From Porphyromonadaceae bacterium (GTDB lineage: Bacteria > Bacteroidota > Bacteroidia > Bacteroidales > UBA12481), in contig QYQM01000100.1 of NCBI GenBank assembly GCA_007280905.1, forward strand, positions 1 through 39,423: a stretch of 39,423 nt of DNA, read 5' to 3'. The translations under genes and the position numbers were made by a program. Below are positions 1 to 39,367 of the stretch, piece by piece (within the stretch, counting starts at the first letter, position 1; each line of letters starts with the position of its first letter). Under the pieces are notes generated by a model. It made no database searches. It was not told the origin of the DNA and saw nothing but the letters and a program-made list of their open reading frames with translations.

Positions 1-3000
1 ATTCTGATTCTTGACGGTGCTATGGGAACTATGATTCAGAAGCTTCGGCTGACTGAATCCGATTATCGTGGTAGTGATATGGTAAACCATCCCTTGCCAT
101 TAAAAGGGAACCACGATCTGTTGAATTTGTCAAAACCGGATGTGATTTTTGATATCCACCAGCAGTATATCGAGGCAGGTGCGCGGGTTATTGAAACTAA
201 CACCTTTAACGCCAATTCGATATCACAATCTGATTATCATACAGGACACCTTGTTTATAAGATTAACCTGGAAGCTGCAAAAATTGCCCGCCGGGCTGCC
301 GGGAACAATGTTTTTGTTTTGGGGTCCATAGGGCCCACAAACCGGACCGCTTCCATGTCGCCCGATGTGGATGATCCGGGATACCGGAATATAACTTTCG
401 ACCAGCTGGCTGAAGCCTACCAGCAGCAGGCAGCCGCATTGCTTGATGGCGGGGTTGACGGATTTCTCATCGAAACGATTTTCGATACACTGAATGCAAA
501 AGCGGCAATATTTGGATTGCAGGAGGAGTTCGTGGCTCGCGGTCAGGAGTGGCCTATTGTTATTTCGGTAACCATCACCGATGCGAGCGGCCGAACCTTA
601 TCAGGCCAAACCCTGGAAGCTTTTTTCTACTCGATTCTTCATGCCAATCCACTCGTGATCGGAATTAATTGTGCATTAGGGGCTAAGGAGCTTCTTCCAT
701 ATCTTCGTGAATTAAAGCGCCTGACGTATGGGAGGGCCTTAGAGCCCTCCCATACCATATTTACATCTGCCTATCCAAACGCAGGACTTCCCAATGAACT
801 TGGCGATTATACCCAATCCGCACTGGAGATGGCTGAATGGATCAGAATTTTTCTGGATGAGGGCCTGGTAAATCTGGTTGGAGGATGCTGCGGCACCACA
901 CCGGACCACATAAAAGCCATTGCCAATCTTGTCCGGAATATCAATTTATCCCCTGGTTCCGATCGTGAGGGAGGTCGTACGGGAGGGCCTCAGAGCCCTC
1001 CCGCTTTGAGCCCTCCCAAATTAAATAATACCGTCCTCACCGGCCTCGAACCCCTCATCATCCGTCCCGAATCGAATTTCATCAATATCGGTGAGCGGAC
1101 AAATGTTGCTGGTTCAAAGCAATTTGCCCGTTTGATTCGTGAGGGAAAATTTGAGGAAGCCCTTACGGTTGCCAGGGAACAAATACAAGGCGGAGCCATG
1201 GTAATTGATGTATGTATGGACGATCCGCTTCTCGATGCATCTGAAGCTATCGGCCGTTTCCTCCGCATGGTTGCTACGGACCCTGATATTGCACGCGTTC
1301 CGATCATGATAGATTCATCCCGCTTCTCCGCGATCCAGGAAGGATTAAAGAATACTCAGGGCAAATCAGTAGTTAATTCCATCAGCCTGAAAGCCGGGGA
1401 ATCGGTTTTTCTCGAGCAGGCCAGGTATTTGCGTCGCTTCGGTGCTGCCGTTATCGTCATGCTGTTCGATGAACTGGGTCAGGCAGATACTTATGAAAGA
1501 AAAATCGGAATTGCCCGCCGCTCCTACGACTTGCTGGTTAACAAGGTGTATTTCCCGCCCGAAGATATTATTATTGATCCCAACGTTCTGGCGCTGGCAA
1601 CCGGGATGGAAGAGCATAACCGATATGGTTTAGCGTATATCGAGGCAACCAGGTGGATCAAACAGAACCTTCCCGGGGTGAAAGTTTCGGGCGGAGTGAG
1701 CAATCTGTCATTTGCTTTCCGCGGCCGCGAAAATATCCGGCAGGCTATGCATGCCGTGTTCCTGTACCACGCTATTCGAGCGGGTATGGATGTGGGCATA
1801 GTAAATCCCTCCATGCTGCAGGTTTATGACGAGGTAGATCCTGGTCTACTGAAACTGGCTGAGGATGTGGTTCTTAATCGCAGAAAAGATGCAACGGACC
1901 GGTTATTGGCGTATGCGGAGAAGACCGGGGACCAGGATAAAAAAAGTATTGGGCAGCCTGACGATTGGAGATCGGTGGGTGTCAAAGATCGGCTGATCCA
2001 TTCGATGGTTGCCGGCATTGCTGATTTCATTGAGGCTGATGTTGAAGAAGCCCGGCAGTTATTTCAATATGCTCTCGAAGTAATTGAACAACCACTGATG
2101 GATGGCATGGGAGTGGTTGGGGATCGGTTTGGCTCAGGAAAGATGTTTCTTCCCCAGGTGATTAAAAGTGCCAGGGTTATGAAAAAGGCTGTTGCTTATC
2201 TGACTCCTTTTATTGAAGCCGAGAAGCTTTCCGGTGCAAGCACCAGCAATGCCGGCAAAGTTGTCCTCGCTACGGTGAAAGGTGATGTCCATGATATCGG
2301 TAAAAATATTGTGGGTGTAATCTTACAATGCAATAATTATGAGGTAATTGATCTTGGTGTTATGGTACCGGCCGAGAAAATTATTGACACAGCTATCCGT
2401 GAGAAAGCTACTATAATCGGTCTCAGTGGATTGATTACCCCATCGCTTGAGGAAATGGCTTACGTGGCCGGCGAAATGCAGAAAGCCGGACTCAATCTGC
2501 CGCTACTGATCGGCGGTGCTACAACTTCTGAATTACATACAGCACTCCGGATCGATCCTTTTTATGAAGGGCCGGTAGTCCATGTGAGGGACGCATCAAG
2601 AGTGGTGGGTGTTACCAGCCTTCTGCTTTCTGCCGATAAATCTGTAGCCCGGAAACTTGAAATCAAATCGGCCTATCAAAAAATCCGTAACGATTATGCC
2701 AATCGGGATAAGACTGCGGGTTATATTTCTCTGATTCAGGCCAGAGAGAATTCTTTAAAGATCGACTGGGATAGTGGAGCCGGAATCTCTAAGCCGGATC
2801 ATTTAGGCCTAGTGAAGTTTTTTGATTTTCCTCTGGAAAAACTCATCCCTTACATTGATTGGTCGTTTTTCTTATATACATGGGATATTCGGGGACGGTA
2901 CCCGGCAATTCTGGAGGACCCGTTAAAAGGGGCAGAAGCAAAGAGCCTGATAGCAGATGCAGAAGAAATGCTGCTGGAAATAATTGCTAACAAGTGGTTG

Positions 3001-3702
3001 AAAGCGAATGGAATAGCAGGCATTTTCCCAGCTAAGTCGGATCATGAGGATATTGTAGTTTATGATCCTGAGGATCCTTCAAAAGTATTAGAGAGATTTT
3101 ATTTTCTGCGCAATCAGGAACAAAAGGAACCAGGAGTGCCGAATCTTTGTTTATCCGATTTTATTGCACCTGATGAAGTTGGTGTCATGGATTATATAGG
3201 GTTATTTGCTGCAACAGCAGGTATCGGATCCGATGAAAAAAGCAGGGAATTCGCCGATCAGAATGATGATTACCGGTCACTGATGTTAAAGGTGCTGGCT
3301 GATCGGCTGGCCGAAGCTTTTGCTGAATGGTTGCATAAAGAAGTACGTAAAGAGATCTGGGGCTATGTTCCCGGAGAAAATCTGGATATTGAGGAATTGC
3401 TGAAAGAGGCTTACCGGGGAATCCGGCCGGCTATCGGTTATCCCAGCTGCCCGGATCATGAAGACAAACTGACACTTTTCAGGATCCTTGATCCCGAAAA
3501 ACAAACCGCTATTGAACTGACCGAAACCCTTGCCATGTATCCCGGTGCTTCGGTGGCAGGGCTCTATTTCGTACATCCCGAATCCAGATATTTTCAGGTT
3601 GGGCGTATCGGCGAGGACCAGATCAAAGATTATGCACGGCGCAGGGGAATATCCATACAACATGCTGAAAAACAACTGGCAACACACTTGAATTATCGAT
3701 GA
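1..3702 (+). CDS. metH: Cobalamin-dependent methionine synthase (5' truncated by window edge)
   Basis: This enzyme transfers a methyl group from 5-methyltetrahydrofolate to homocysteine through cobalamin in the cytoplasm. The frame is open from base 1 ([11 protein letters not shown]), so the true start is upstream of the window. All four modules are visible in order: a homocysteine/zinc domain with the GINCALG cysteine (about 661-681) and the GGCC pair (880-891); a pterin-binding domain starting near FINIGERTN (about 1078); a B12 domain with GDVHDIGKN, whose axial His codon is 2290-2292; and the reactivation domain with [12 protein letters not shown] (about 3424-3459). Two short segments look inserted: TYGRALEPS before the [10 protein letters not shown] strand, and a Pro/Gly-rich stretch in the linker to the pterin domain. 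Both are encoded by copies of one palindromic DNA element. The stop codon overlaps the metF start (ATGA), so the two are translationally coupled. Identity is certain; only the start is missing. Confidence 0.97.
726..755. repeat. Palindromic element copy 1 inside metH
   Basis: The arms 726-737 (GTATGGGAGGGC) and 744-755 are perfect 12-bp reverse complements around a 6-nt loop (CTTAGA). The 22-nt core at 730-751 is repeated with one difference at 981-1002. In metH it is read as YGRALEPSH and falls between two conserved segments of the homocysteine-binding barrel, where MetH proteins normally have only a few residues. This suggests an in-frame insertion of about 27-30 nt. Confidence 0.8.
980..1017. 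repeat. Palindromic element copy 2 inside metH, with an extra half-site
   Basis: The arms 980-988 and 995-1003 form a perfect 9-bp inverted repeat around CTCAGA. The 8-nt arms GGGAGGGC and GCCCTCCC match copy 1 exactly. A further GAGCCCTCCC half-site follows at 1008-1017. Here the core is read one base out of phase relative to copy 1, giving [13 protein letters not shown] in the flexible linker between the homocysteine and pterin domains. The frame difference shows that the repeat is conserved as nucleic acid and not as peptide. Confidence 0.8.
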
Positions 3703-4652
3703 AAGTCACAGAACATATCGAAAAACTGACCGGGCCGAAGTTTTCTTTGGAGATACTACCGCCTACAAAGGGATCGAGTATCCAAACTATTTACGATGCT
3801 CTTGATCCATTGATGGAATTTAAACCGCCATACATCAATATCACCTATCATCAGGCTGAAGTAGAACTCAAACAGCGTCCGGATGGATTGCTCGAACCCC
3901 GCGTGGTTCGCAAAAGGCCCGGAACGGTGGCCATTTCAGCTGCCATACAGAACCGGTACCGGGTGGATGTGGTTCCGCATCTGATCTGCGGGGGATTTTC
4001 GAAGGAAGAAACCGAAGATGCTTTGATTGATTTGCATTATCTGGGCATACATAATGTTCTGATAGTCAGAGGTGATGCTAACCAATTGACCGGCCGGTTC
4101 GTACCTTCCCGGAACGGTCATGAGCATGCTCTGGACCTTCTAAAACAGGTGGTTGACCTGAGGAACGGAAAGTACCTCGAGGATGATCTGGAAAACCCTG
4201 AACCATTGAATTTTTCGCTGGGTGTGGCTGCTTATCCCGAAAAACACCTGGAAGCTCCGAATTTCGAGAGCGATCTCTTTTATCTGAAAGCAAAGGTTGA
4301 TGCCGGCGCTGAATATATTGTCACGCAAATGTTTTTCGATAACCGCAAATTTTTCAGTTTCGTAGAGGCCTGCCGCAATGCGGGTATAACCGTTCCAATT
4401 ATCCCGGGGATTAAACCAGTTTCGATAAAAAGACATATTAATATATTGCCCCAGACATTTAAAGTAGATATCCCGCAGGAGCTTTCACGTGAAATGGAGA
4501 AATGTAAAAACAATGATGAGGTGAGGCAGGTGGGTATCGAATGGGCCATTCAGCAATCTAAAGAGTTGATTGATTCTGGGGTTCCGATAATCCATTTCTT
4601 TACCATGGGGAGGGCTGATAATATCCGAAAAATTGCCGAGGGGATATTGTAA
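3699..4652 (+). CDS. metF: Methylenetetrahydrofolate reductase
   Basis: This flavoenzyme reduces 5,10-methylene-THF to 5-methyl-THF, the methyl donor used by MetH. The 317-residue length is normal for bacterial MetF. Family motifs seen are FSLEILPP near the N-terminus (the FxFEFFPP strand), [10 protein letters not shown] in the middle (NILALRGD-like FAD/folate region), and [10 protein letters not shown] followed by [10 protein letters not shown] in the second half of the barrel. The ATG overlaps the metH stop by 4 nt, so the two enzymes that act in sequence are made from one message. A long imperfect hairpin followed by seven T residues lies immediately downstream and probably ends the transcript. 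Confidence 0.96.
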
Positions 4653-4660
4653 ATATTCAC

Positions 4661-4755
4661 CACAGAGTCACAGAAAACACAGAGTTTCACGGAGATTTGA
4701 TTTAAGTAATCATCTCTGTGTTTCTCTATGTTCTCTGTGACTCCGTGCTTTTTTT
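4661..4755 (+). repeat. Long imperfect inverted repeat (CACAGAG type) that may terminate metHF
   Basis: A left arm at 4661-4696 and a right arm at 4712-4747 match in 29 of 36 positions as reverse complements, around a 15-nt AT-rich loop. The arms consist of short units such as CACAGAG and TCACAGA. A run of seven T residues follows at 4749-4755, so the hairpin could act as an intrinsic terminator for metH-metF. The shape, two related arms with an internally repetitive sequence, is that of a dispersed intergenic palindrome. No second copy is present in this window. Confidence 0.75.
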
Positions 4756-4793
4756 ATTTAAATTGCCGGTGTTTTCGGTACTTTTATGCCACT

Positions 4794-5531
4794 ATGGAAG
4801 TAGATCTGTTTATGCCCTGTTTTGTTGATCAGCTGTTTCCTGATACAGGCTGGAATGTTCATCGTGTACTGGAAAATGTGGGATGCAGTGTTCTGTATAA
4901 TCCTGAACAAACCTGCTGCGGTCAGGCTGCTTATAATGCCGGCCATTGGGACATTGCACAGGATCTGGCCAATAAATTTATTGATGATTTCAGCGGTTCC
5001 AGGCCAATAGTCTGCCCTTCGGCTTCCTGTGCCGGATATGTTAAGAATTATTATGCCGGCCTCCTTAAAGGCACCATATATTTGAATCAATACAACAGGC
5101 TTCGGACACAAGTATATGAATTTACCGATTTTTTGGTGAATGTTCTGCAGGTAAGAGATGTTGGAGCCCGGTTCAGGGCAAAAGTGACCTTCCATGATTC
5201 CTGTGCTGCGCTCAGGGAATATGGTATCAAAAGCGAACCGCGTGCTTTGCTTGAAAAAGTCAGGGGTCTTGAACTTCTGGAAATGCCGGATACCGACACT
5301 TGTTGCGGTTTTGGCGGAACTTTCTCGATAAAACATGAGCCTATCTCTACTGCTATGGCCCAGCAGAAAGTTGAAAATGCCTTATCAACCGGAGCGGAAT
5401 ATATCGTTTCGACAGAAATGTCGTGTCTGATGCATTTGGATTCTTATATCCGAAAACATCATCTGGGTATACGCTGTATGCATATTGCGGATATACTCGC
5501 AACCTCTGATCAGGGAGTGTTGTTTCACTAA
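4794..5531 (+). CDS. LutA/YkgE-like (Fe-S)-binding protein with two CCG domains
   Basis: This 245-residue protein has two cysteine-rich CCG domains, as in the LutA/YkgE subunit of L-lactate utilisation complexes and in HdrB. In the first half, MPCFVDQ, QTCCGQAAYN and CPSASCAGY supply the CxnCCGxnCxxC set. In the second half HDSCAALREYG, TDTCCGFGG and STEMSCLMH do so. I chose ATG 4794 (MEVDLFMPC) because LutA proteins begin close to the first motif. A longer frame starting at 4728 would encode part of the upstream inverted repeat. Its usual partners LutB and LutC are not adjacent: the next gene is a beta-galactosidase. The redox role is therefore inferred from family, and lactate specificity is uncertain. 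Confidence 0.85.
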   Translation: MEVDLFMPCFVDQLFPDTGWNVHRVLENVGCSVLYNPEQTCCGQAAYNAGHWDIAQDLANKFIDDFSGSRPIVCPSASCAGYVKNYYAGLLKGTIYLNQYNRLRTQVYEFTDFLVNVLQVRDVGARFRAKVTFHDSCAALREYGIKSEPRALLEKVRGLELLEMPDTDTCCGFGGTFSIKHEPISTAMAQQKVENALSTGAEYIVSTEMSCLMHLDSYIRKHHLGIRCMHIADILATSDQGVLFH

Positions 5532-37204: not shown

Positions 37205-39367
37205 ATGACTAGAAAAGTTCAACTGCCAGAAGAGCAGTTACAGGTTGAAGGGATTGAAATCCCTGAACCATCAAGCCAGGAAGTTATTGTAGCGGAAGCT
37301 ATTGTAGAAGAAGCTGTTGTAGAAGAAGCTGCTGTGGAAGAAGCTGCTGTGGAAGAAGCTGTGTTAGAAGAAACTGCTGTCGAAGAAACAGTAGAACAAA
37401 CTGAAGCAGAACTACCGGAAGTGCTTGCTGAACAGCAAGTTGAAGTAGTTGAACCGGAAGTGGAAGAGGAATCCGAAGAAGTAATTGAGGTGCCGGAAAT
37501 AGTTCCAGAACCGGAAGTTTTACCGGATGAGGCTGATCCTGAGGTAACTGAATTGGTTGTTGAGGAAAAAGAAGCTGTTGTTGGTGAAAACAAACCCGAT
37601 GCAGCATCTGAGCATTTAACCCGAAAATCCGATCTCCCACCAATTAATATTGACTATTCTGGTTATTCCCGCCCGGCACTCCTGGAGGCGCTGGGTTTGT
37701 TGCTCAATCATAGAGCTATTCATGAAGTTACCCGCGATGTGGAGAATATCCGATCAACTTTCTACAGGAAGTTGAAAATTGAATCAGAAGAAAAGCATAA
37801 GAAATTCATCGAAGAAGGCGGTGTCGAGGAAGAATACAAACCTGCTCCTGATCCGCTTGAGGAGGGTTTCAAAGTCTCGTATGAACAGTATAGACTAAAA
37901 AGAACTGAATATTCTAAAGCCATTGAAGGAGATAAAGAGGGCAATCTCAAGAAAAAACTGGAGATCATTGATCATATAAAGAACCTCCTGAATACTCAGG
38001 AATCTCTGAATAAGACATTTAACGAATTTCGTGATCTGCAGCGGCAATGGAGGGATATCGGACCCGTTCCCCAGGCAGATTTGCATAGTTTGTGGGAAAA
38101 TTACCATCACCATGTGGAGAGATTCTATGATTATATTAAGATCAATAAGGAACTCAGAGATCTTGATCTTAAAAAGAACCTGGAAATCAAGATGCATATT
38201 TGCGAAAAGGCTGAAGAATTGTTGCTGGAACCATCTGTGATCAAGTCATTCGGTGAACTGCAGCAATTTCATAATCAATGGAGGGAAATCGGGCCCGTTC
38301 CGAGTGAGAAGAAGGACGAAATATGGGATCGATTCAGAGAAGCAACCAATCAGATTAATCGTAAACATCAGGAATACTATCTGAACCTGAAAGATGAACA
38401 AAAGAAAAACCTGGATGCAAAAACCCATCTGTGCGAAAAGATCGACGAAATTCTTCAAAAACCCGTTCAAAGTCCAAAAGACTGGAACGATTTTTCGCAG
38501 GAAGTGGTCAAGTTGCAGCAAATGTGGCGCAGTATTGGCTTTGCTCCCAGAAAAGATAACAATAAGGTTTATGATCGGTTCCGGGCGGGTTGTGATGAAT
38601 TTTTCAACCGCAAAAGGGAATATTTTTCCCGCCACCGTGATGATCAGCATGGTAACCTTCAGTTAAAAACCGACCTGTGTATGCAGGCCGAAGCACTCAG
38701 CAACAGCACCGAATGGAGGAAAACTTCCGATGAACTGGTTACCATCCAGAAAAAGTGGAAAGAAATCGGACCGGTCCCAAGAAAGTATTCAGATCCTCTA
38801 TGGCATCGGTTCCGCACTGCCTGCGATGCTTTCTTTAAAAAGAAAACCGAGTTCTTCAGTTCCCAGGATTCCGAACAGATTGAGAATCTGAAATTGAAAT
38901 TGGAATTGGTTGAAAAGGTCAAGTCGTTTACACTTTCCGATAATCATTATGAGGATCTAATGACCCTCAAAACCATTCAGAAAGATTTTACCTCAATCGG
39001 CCACATACCTATTGAGAAAAAAGATGAGGTTCAAAGAGAATTCAGGGAAGGCATTCACAAACTTTTCGACCAGCTGGACATAGATGAACCAAAAAAAGAA
39101 ATTTTGCGATATAAACAAAAAGTTGATACCTTTGTTCAATCCCCCAAAAATAGAAACCGTATTTCATCCGAAAGAGAGAAATTGGTGAATAAGCTTAAGC
39201 AAATGGAAAGTGACGTTGTTCTCTGGGAGAATAATATAGGTTTCTTTGCGAAATCTCAGAAATCTGAATCACTGATCCGGGAGGTGGAAAATAAGATCGC
39301 CCAGGAGCGTGAGCGTATTCAACTGCTTAAAGAAAAAATTGATTTGCTCGATCGTTTCGAATCGTAA
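37205..39367 (+). CDS. DUF349-repeat protein with acidic N-terminus
   Basis: This 720-residue cytoplasmic protein is of unknown function and typical of Bacteroidota. Residues 15-140 are an acidic, low-complexity region with VEEAA-type pentapeptides. Then come five DUF349 repeats of about 77-82 residues, with the marker tryptophans at 282 (RQWRDIGPVP), 359 (NQWREIGPVP), 441 (QMWRSIGFAP) and 518 (KKWKEIGPVP). A fifth repeat lacks the Trp (KDFTSIGHIP, near 595). A coiled coil ends the protein (EVENKIAQERERIQLLKEKI). The repeats are probably helical bundles. No partner is suggested by the neighbours. Confidence 0.9.
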   Translation: MTRKVQLPEEQLQVEGIEIPEPSSQEVIVAEAIVEEAVVEEAAVEEAAVEEAVLEETAVEETVEQTEAELPEVLAEQQVEVVEPEVEEESEEVIEVPEIVPEPEVLPDEADPEVTELVVEEKEAVVGENKPDAASEHLTRKSDLPPINIDYSGYSRPALLEALGLLLNHRAIHEVTRDVENIRSTFYRKLKIESEEKHKKFIEEGGVEEEYKPAPDPLEEGFKVSYEQYRLKRTEYSKAIEGDKEGNLKKKLEIIDHIKNLLNTQESLNKTFNEFRDLQRQWRDIGPVPQADLHSLWENYHHHVERFYDYIKINKELRDLDLKKNLEIKMHICEKAEELLLEPSVIKSFGELQQFHNQWREIGPVPSEKKDEIWDRFREATNQINRKHQEYYLNLKDEQKKNLDAKTHLCEKIDEILQKPVQSPKDWNDFSQEVVKLQQMWRSIGFAPRKDNNKVYDRFRAGCDEFFNRKREYFSRHRDDQHGNLQLKTDLCMQAEALSNSTEWRKTSDELVTIQKKWKEIGPVPRKYSDPLWHRFRTACDAFFKKKTEFFSSQDSEQIENLKLKLELVEKVKSFTLSDNHYEDLMTLKTIQKDFTSIGHIPIEKKDEVQREFREGIHKLFDQLDIDEPKKEILRYKQKVDTFVQSPKNRNRISSEREKLVNKLKQMESDVVLWENNIGFFAKSQKSESLIREVENKIAQERERIQLLKEKIDLLDRFES
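37289..37393 (+). repeat. Seven tandem 15-nt units encoding acidic pentapeptides
   Basis: Seven units of the type GTAGAAGAAGCTGCT run without a break from 37289 to 37393 in the DUF349 gene. The central four are nearly identical and the outer ones have drifted. Each encodes V-E-E-A-A/V. The array could change length by slippage without loss of frame. Confidence 0.85.

Follow-up and report, generated by a model that had tools for sequence, protein, structure and literature searches.

Hairpins in the methionine synthase gene of an uncultured Bacteroidales-like bacterium as probable copies of a dispersed GTAG-type REP family

Two hairpins within the metH coding sequence

Two hairpins inside the metH gene of an uncultured bacterium almost certainly belong to a REP family of the GTAG type that is found in its Bacteroidales-like genus. 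That REPs mobilised by RAYT transposases landed in tolerant loops of the protein is the most likely account, and GTAG-type REP identity and RAYT-driven origin taken jointly gave the overall best explanation, which we hold with good confidence. The name REP refers to extragenic elements, yet two of them lie here inside the gene of a conserved enzyme.

The window, which is the whole stretch of 39,423 nt that was analysed, belongs to genome G000 (4.39 Mb, 185 contigs); seven other genomes of the same genus (G001–G007) were compared. The features of the window that matter here are the following.

1..3702, forward strand: metH, cobalamin-dependent methionine synthase (NCBIfam PRK09490 / TIGR02082 and five Pfam domains)
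726..755, forward strand: REP copy 1, flanked by a foot on each side, in the homocysteine domain of metH; read Y-G-R-A-L-E-P-S-H
977..1002, forward strand: REP copy 2, in the linker between the homocysteine and folate domains; read T-G-G-P-Q-S-P-P
1003..1017, forward strand: trailing half-unit behind copy 2, consisting of loop-like CTTTGA and the 3' arm GCCCTCCC
3699..4652, forward strand: metF-like methylenetetrahydrofolate reductase gene (TIGR00676), overlapping metH by 4 nt; context only

The start of the contig truncates the 5' end of metH, of which 1233 codons are visible. Copy 1 is composed of GTAT (726–729), the 5' arm (730–737), the loop CTTAGA (738–743), the 3' arm (744–751) and ATAC (752–755), so that perfect arms of 12 nt span 726–755. 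Copy 2 comprises the foot GTAC (977–980), the 5' arm (981–988), the loop CTCAGA (989–994) and the 3' arm (995–1002). The 22-nt palindromic cores, GGGAGGGCCTTAGAGCCCTCCC at 730–751 and GGGAGGGCCTCAGAGCCCTCCC at 981–1002, differ in a single base. The first-pass annotation had described two cores with 21 of 22 bases identical, arms of 8 nt and a loop of 6 nt, which lie about 250 nt apart and are followed by a third half-site. The positions were confirmed, the distance from start to start was 251 nt, and the third half-site was found as an exact arm at 1010–1017. The half-unit 1003–1017 is one part of a 15-nt tandem (CTCAGAGCCCTCCCG / CTTTGAGCCCTCCCA). It may be what is left of a REPIN's second REP, or the tail may have been duplicated; repeats of loop and 3' arm at the tail occurred also at loci L070, L091 and L128.

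When up to three mismatches were allowed, the core pattern had two matches in the window versus 0.05 expected, and one of 100 shuffles reached as many. Copy 1 was predicted to fold as RNA with -23.4 kcal/mol (z -5.9), and the linker element 970–1017 with -28.5 kcal/mol (z -3.6). The covariance model of the family described below scored copy 1 with 38.5 bits and copy 2 with 37.9 bits, both copies being members of its training set. A search of window positions 1–5000 against Rfam resulted in four matches, none above the gathering score; a match to a frameshift element at 731–758 reached 22.1 bits versus a gathering score of 34.

The Pfam limits of the homocysteine domain (residues 2–310) and the folate domain (364–602) confirmed that copy 2 is located in an interdomain linker, as had been proposed. 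An AlphaFold2 model of residues 1–370 of MetH had a mean pLDDT of 84.3, with values under 50 in the linker (317–338) and an average of 68 in block 241–250. In the model both added segments therefore look like flexible segments.

A dispersed family with a GTAG-type foot

The family has a GTAG-type foot and an 8-bp stem, GGGAGGAC/GTCCTCCC, around a 6-nt loop. We counted copies by the strict pattern GGGNGGNC(N6)GNCCNCCC, which leaves stem positions 4 and 7 free. It matched 46 times in G006, 21 times in G005, 9 times in G007, 8 times in G001, 6 times in G000, twice in G004, once in G003 and not at all in G002, while the reversed-pattern control gave no match in any of the eight genus genomes except for a single one in G006. 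The other 33 of the 41 genomes had three strict-pattern matches in all, and likewise three for the reversed pattern. At the level of the class, the GTAG form of the stem was present in 6 of 395 genomes, G000 included, with no control match among the matches listed.

Forty copies were chosen for alignment. Their feet were GTAG (29), GTAC (6), GTAT (3), ATAG (1) and GTCG (1), which means that 38 of the 40 start with GTA and that most have GTAG directly before the stem. Many copies form inverted pairs (REPINs), with GTAG and CTAC as the outer ends. REPINs were reportedly described by Bertels and Rainey in 2011 as inverted REP pairs, which is like the arrangement in metH and in a RAYT gene of G006. 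The two stem positions that the search pattern does not fix covary: at either of them 37 of the 38 distinct rows were paired, and 11 cells had changes on both sides.

A covariance model was built from the 40 copies, the two window copies among them. In G000 it found 19 matches at E values up to 0.05, and nine distinct places below 1e-4. Among the 150 candidates scored per genome, the counts were 107 in G006, 43 in G005, 33 in G001, 32 in G007, 19 in G000, 7 in G004, 6 in G003 and 0 in G002, numbers that include both strands of near-perfect palindromes. The first-pass annotation had suggested a dispersed element that enters reading frames, and the core with up to two mismatches was indeed present at seven places in G000, versus two for the reversed pattern; the alternative outcome, no other copy in the genome, did not occur. 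A looser own-genome pattern with two mismatches was rejected, as its matches were mostly due to chance (17 forward and 15 reverse, versus 36 and 31 for the reversed control).

Peptide selection, or chance similarity of GC-rich sequences, was considered as another source of the match between the two copies. The linker peptide GG(P/L)xxPP is alike in four species, and this similarity alone forces most of the five pairs that do not involve third codon positions. Against this, the two metH copies are read in different frames (YGRALEPSH versus TGGPQSPP, as already noticed in the first pass), and the same sequence together with its foot recurs in unrelated genes and in intergenic DNA, with 0–1 matches per genome for the reversed control. 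As the full explanation it is refuted, in line with the earlier claim, and we give it hardly any credit.

Neither window copy has a GTAG foot of its own (GTAT in copy 1, GTAC in copy 2), so their assignment to the GTAG-tagged REPs rests on their family and not on their own feet. The idea that GTAT and GTAC serve solely to avoid an in-frame TAG fits metH site 1, C13 and C46 of G000 and G007:C78; it was dropped, because GTAC is also the foot of a non-coding copy between sdhC and sdhA of G007. REPs with a double foot were seen at L095 and L123 and, in the form GTAT/ATAC, at 726–755 of the window.

Rickettsia palindromic elements (RPEs) insert in frame into conserved genes, and to our knowledge no link between them and RAYTs has been described. 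The likeness drawn by the first-pass annotation holds for this behaviour, since short palindromes stand in frame inside conserved genes here too. It does not extend to the family. The CGTC foot was absent from all 40 aligned copies, and the GTA foot and the RAYT link, rather than an alignment, set the window hairpins apart from RPEs and point to GTAG REPs. Membership of the window hairpins in the RPE family is accordingly very improbable. RPE-4 and RPE-6 are placed in the CGTC-tagged superfamily by Di Nocera, De Gregorio and Rocco (2013, PMC3733652). In the relevant passages of that paper, GTAG repeats are attributed to Proteobacteria, Cyanobacteria, Chloroflexi and the PVC group, and Bacteroidetes are named only for CGTC repeats. 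GTAG REPs are described there with stems of 6–13 bp, alternative complementary stem bases within a family, and an occurrence as singles and inverted pairs. Our family resembles them, as far as those passages go, in the GTAG foot, the 8-bp stem, the dispersed singles and inverted dimers, the association with RAYTs and the intragenic copies. It is unlike them at the fourth foot base, which is not constant here (GTAC, GTAT); none of the degenerate feet given in those passages departs at the fourth base.

Tandem repeats were noticed at L127 and L129, where REPs stand beside short tandem repeats such as TTCAACCATTTCAACCA that lengthen variable protein segments. The small dispersed repeats SDR4–SDR6 of Nostoc, 21–27 nt long, are hairpins that show compensatory changes and frequently lie next to short tandem repeats. 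By description, which is the level of this comparison, they are like our family in length, in the hairpin with compensatory changes and in the tandem-repeat setting of L127 and L129, and they come from another phylum.

RAYT transposases of the genus

Y1_Tnp genes were present in all eight genus genomes, most of them flanked by other palindromes or by none. Among the 14 PF01797 loci of the genus, a scan for 8-nt arms found palindromes of this family only at G006:C15. This RAYT (Y1/HUH transposase) harbors a REPIN in frame inside its ORF, right after the HUH motif (MPNHFHG), and a second REPIN of the family at its 3' end. A partial RAYT at G005:C906, cut by the start of the contig, was 62% identical to it over 147 residues and is followed by two REPs. 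G006 and G005 are the genomes with most copies and also those with a RAYT of the G006:C15 type. G007 has a more distant relative (42% over part), likewise with REPs at its 3' side; neither G007 (9 strict copies) nor G001 (8) had a close relative of the G006:C15 RAYT, the best matches being 42 and 45% over parts. In G000 the nearest relatives found were partial matches of 47, 35 and 34%, and the 47% match, G000:C26, holds a different REPIN. The RAYT mover of the window's own copies is therefore only putative.

Quentin et al. (2018, PMC6006769) report hosts of the TnpA-REP/RAYT subclass 2.4 in Cyanobacteria, in Bacteroidetes and in further phyla. The relevant passages of this paper characterise it by a GT[AG]G foot, a stem with three G-C pairs at its base, 'double foot' REPs, the motifs NH[IFV]H, WQ and YIxNNP, and REPs within the RAYT ORF between the HUH and Y motifs that leave the frame intact. 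G006:C15 is like these proteins, as far as those passages describe them, in its motifs (NHFH, WQ, YIRNNP) and in the in-frame REPIN of its ORF, and our family shares the type of foot, the three G-C pairs and the double-foot REPs. By motif and internal REPIN, rather than by a tree, G006:C15 would be a RAYT of subclass 2.4.

A RAYT-driven origin of the hairpin copies is probable. A RAYT would recognise foot and hairpin on single-stranded DNA and then move or copy the element. In-frame, stop-free copies that landed in a disordered linker or a peripheral loop would be tolerated and inherited, and coding copies might then stay paired because the hairpin is under selection, because template switching corrects an imperfect palindrome, or because other copies replace them.

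REPs of other types lie inside the ORFs of RAYTs of G000, G001, G440 and G028. RAYT ORFs with an in-frame REP or REPIN after the HUH motif were also noticed at L247:1450-2148 (G000:C26), L234 (G006:C15), L236, L237 and L243, with encoded peptides such as VGAGLAPA...RAGASPAPT.

Copies inside reading frames

Six of the nine strong places that the covariance model found in G000 are inside reading frames and three (C123, C47, C43) between genes, a count that bears out the view of an element entering reading frames. The coding copies of G000 are the following.

metH: two copies, in frame
DUF5107/TPR gene (C13): one copy
TonB-dependent receptor gene (C107): one copy, between the carboxypeptidase-like and plug domains
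D-mannonate oxidoreductase-like SDR gene (C46): one copy
spermidine-synthase-like fusion gene (C37): one copy; homology supports the C-terminal part only

The C46 copy lies in a loop of a protein that equals the family profile in length (274 residues versus 274), which is odd for a plain insertion. All 46 strict copies of G006 were inspected, and four were judged to be gene-internal with support by homology, two in metH and two in the RAYT gene; the remaining copies in open frames look like leaders or chance frames. The share of gene-internal strict copies was 3 of 6 in G000 and 4 of 46 in G006 (p = 0.026, with small numbers and internal status judged by reading). The model count of G000 (6 of 9) set against the strict count of G006 (4 of 46) gave p = 0.0005, with detection methods that differ between the two genomes. 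In-frame copies within conserved frames were seen in G007 and G001 as well.

The first-pass annotation knew of no such description for this sequence, yet elements of this kind inside coding genes have been published (PMC3733652, PMC6006769), so that REPs entering genes are already known. Passages of PMC3733652 mention REPs within ORFs, even two per ORF, which are supposed to be harmless in linkers or loops. The metH case and an orthologous, covarying coding copy were not met in the literature searched, of which only PMC3733652 was checked inside for "methionine"; the word is absent from its main text. For annotation, these copies mean that an extra loop in a protein of this kind may stem from mobile DNA rather than represent a conserved domain.

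Site 1 and the linker in MetH proteins

We compared the lengths of the two places in 110 metH loci, which include eight genus loci from seven genomes (G006 counts twice); no metH was found in G001. For site 1, the place of copy 1, the anchors were matched in 106 of the 110 loci, with 31–37 aa in the eight genus loci and 24–26 aa in the other 98. The anchors of the linker were matched in 99 of the 110, with 53–63 aa in the same eight genus loci and 45 aa (89 loci), 46 aa (1) or 50 aa (1) in the other 91. In a phmmer alignment, human MetH (4ccz) was shorter by 9 aa at site 1 and by 16 aa in the linker; distant MetH proteins are thus without both segments, and the outcome that would have spoken against inserted elements, the same residues in distant orthologs, did not occur.

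The claim that site 1 is compact in known MetH proteins is right outside the genus. The extension is, however, present in all seven genus genomes with metH, only one of which (G000) has a palindrome in it, and is therefore no simple insertion confined to G000. No clean empty site was found at site 1 within the genus. That the element was "inserted twice" is a fair description of the linker and a doubtful one of site 1, where sister species carry a different sequence of equal or nearly equal length. The linker as a hot spot for REPs outside the genus was rejected: among the 91 other loci, nine had a palindrome with arms of 7–8 nt, none of them with a GTA foot by eye.

Pairing and descent of the linker hairpin

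A linker REP is common to four species. G006 has a full REPIN there, G005 one REP, and G000 and G004 one REP plus a half-unit; in G004 GCCCTCCC follows the REP at the same 7-nt spacing as the half-unit of G000. The REPIN of G006 (GTAG-REP-11 nt-REP-CTAC) is in frame and was predicted to fold with -58.9 kcal/mol (z -10.3). No palindrome with arms over 5 was found in the linker of G002, G003 and G007. A metH tree from 531 columns, with the insert sites left out, grouped (G000,(G006,G004)) with G005 and G003 outside; the support was 83/90 for the three genomes together and 94/99 for G006 with G004, values that leave both groupings less than fully firm.

Read in the linker frame, the two arms of the stem place third codon positions opposite each other. 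All eight pairs, including all three third-position pairs, are formed in G000, G005 and G006, with compensated synonymous changes (G-C for A-T in G000, T-A for A-T in G005). In G004 only five of the eight pairs are left, and exactly the three third-position pairs are lost. Fourfold third positions of metH differ by 58–67% among the four genomes, near saturation. The arm GGGTGGAC of G005 is unique among the 21 strict copies of that genome, and it was therefore not copied from one of these.

Compensated changes were also found outside of coding sequence. The intergenic REP G000:C47 is orthologous to one half of the REPIN G006:C467, and the arms differ by a compensated pair. Between the sdhC stop and the sdhA start, three of the eight genus genomes (G001, G006, G007) carry a REP, with a compensated arm change in G007 versus G006 and G001 (L287, L288, L293). 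G003, G004 and G005 have a short junction without REP (empty site), and G002 and G000 also lack the REP, G000 with a longer leader. The TPR-gene copies of G000 and G007 were rejected as orthologous, since they lie at about the same place in a linker that is too variable. Judged by sequence, the compensated changes at orthologous REPs can be due to shared descent with maintenance or to repeated replacement.

A mobile hairpin may have been in the linker since the common ancestor and kept paired by covarying synonymous changes, so that it became, or is policed as, a structural element in coding sequence; we put this forward only tentatively. A role of the hairpins in the metH mRNA, for pausing between domains, mRNA stability or protein binding, with the REP recruited as an RNA element, seems doubtful to us. 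It would agree with the eight pairs kept in G000, G005 and G006 despite the divergence at fourfold third positions of metH, when the chance of a Watson-Crick pair at such third positions is about 0.25, and with the unique arm of G005. It does not agree with the loss of all third-position pairs in G004, which is nested among the keepers in the tree, with the three linkers lacking a palindrome, or with a site 1 that is palindromic in G000 only; moreover, REPs elsewhere in the genomes pair alike. Mutation bias could produce paired changes without selection if template switching at the quasi-palindrome during replication copied arm onto arm. Compensated changes at coding (metH linker) as well as non-coding orthologous REPs (C47 locus, sdhC-sdhA) and the G005 arm would be expected from this, but the same stem has three unpaired positions in G004, and we regard template switching as possible without favoring it.

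Orthologous copies in several species offer a rare chance to part selection on the hairpin from mutation bias, because in the metH linker third positions pair with third positions. Whichever of the two, RNA selection or template-switch correction, maintained the pairing, REPs at orthologous intragenic places would provide a natural experiment on it.

Other repeats were noticed in the course of the analysis. Just 3' of metF, window positions 4661–4747 hold an imperfect inverted repeat composed of CACAGAG/CTCTGTG-like units, whose two 36-nt arms are 81% complementary and enclose a 15-nt spacer. A 15-nt tandem repeat (unit GAAGCTATTGTAGAA, about seven copies) at 37280–37387 possibly codes for a Glu/Ala/Val repeat. 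In Comamonadaceae bacterium G21597-S1, the metH match at L222:4001-9279 takes 5279 nt for 1230 residues, and a large insertion may thus interrupt the gene.
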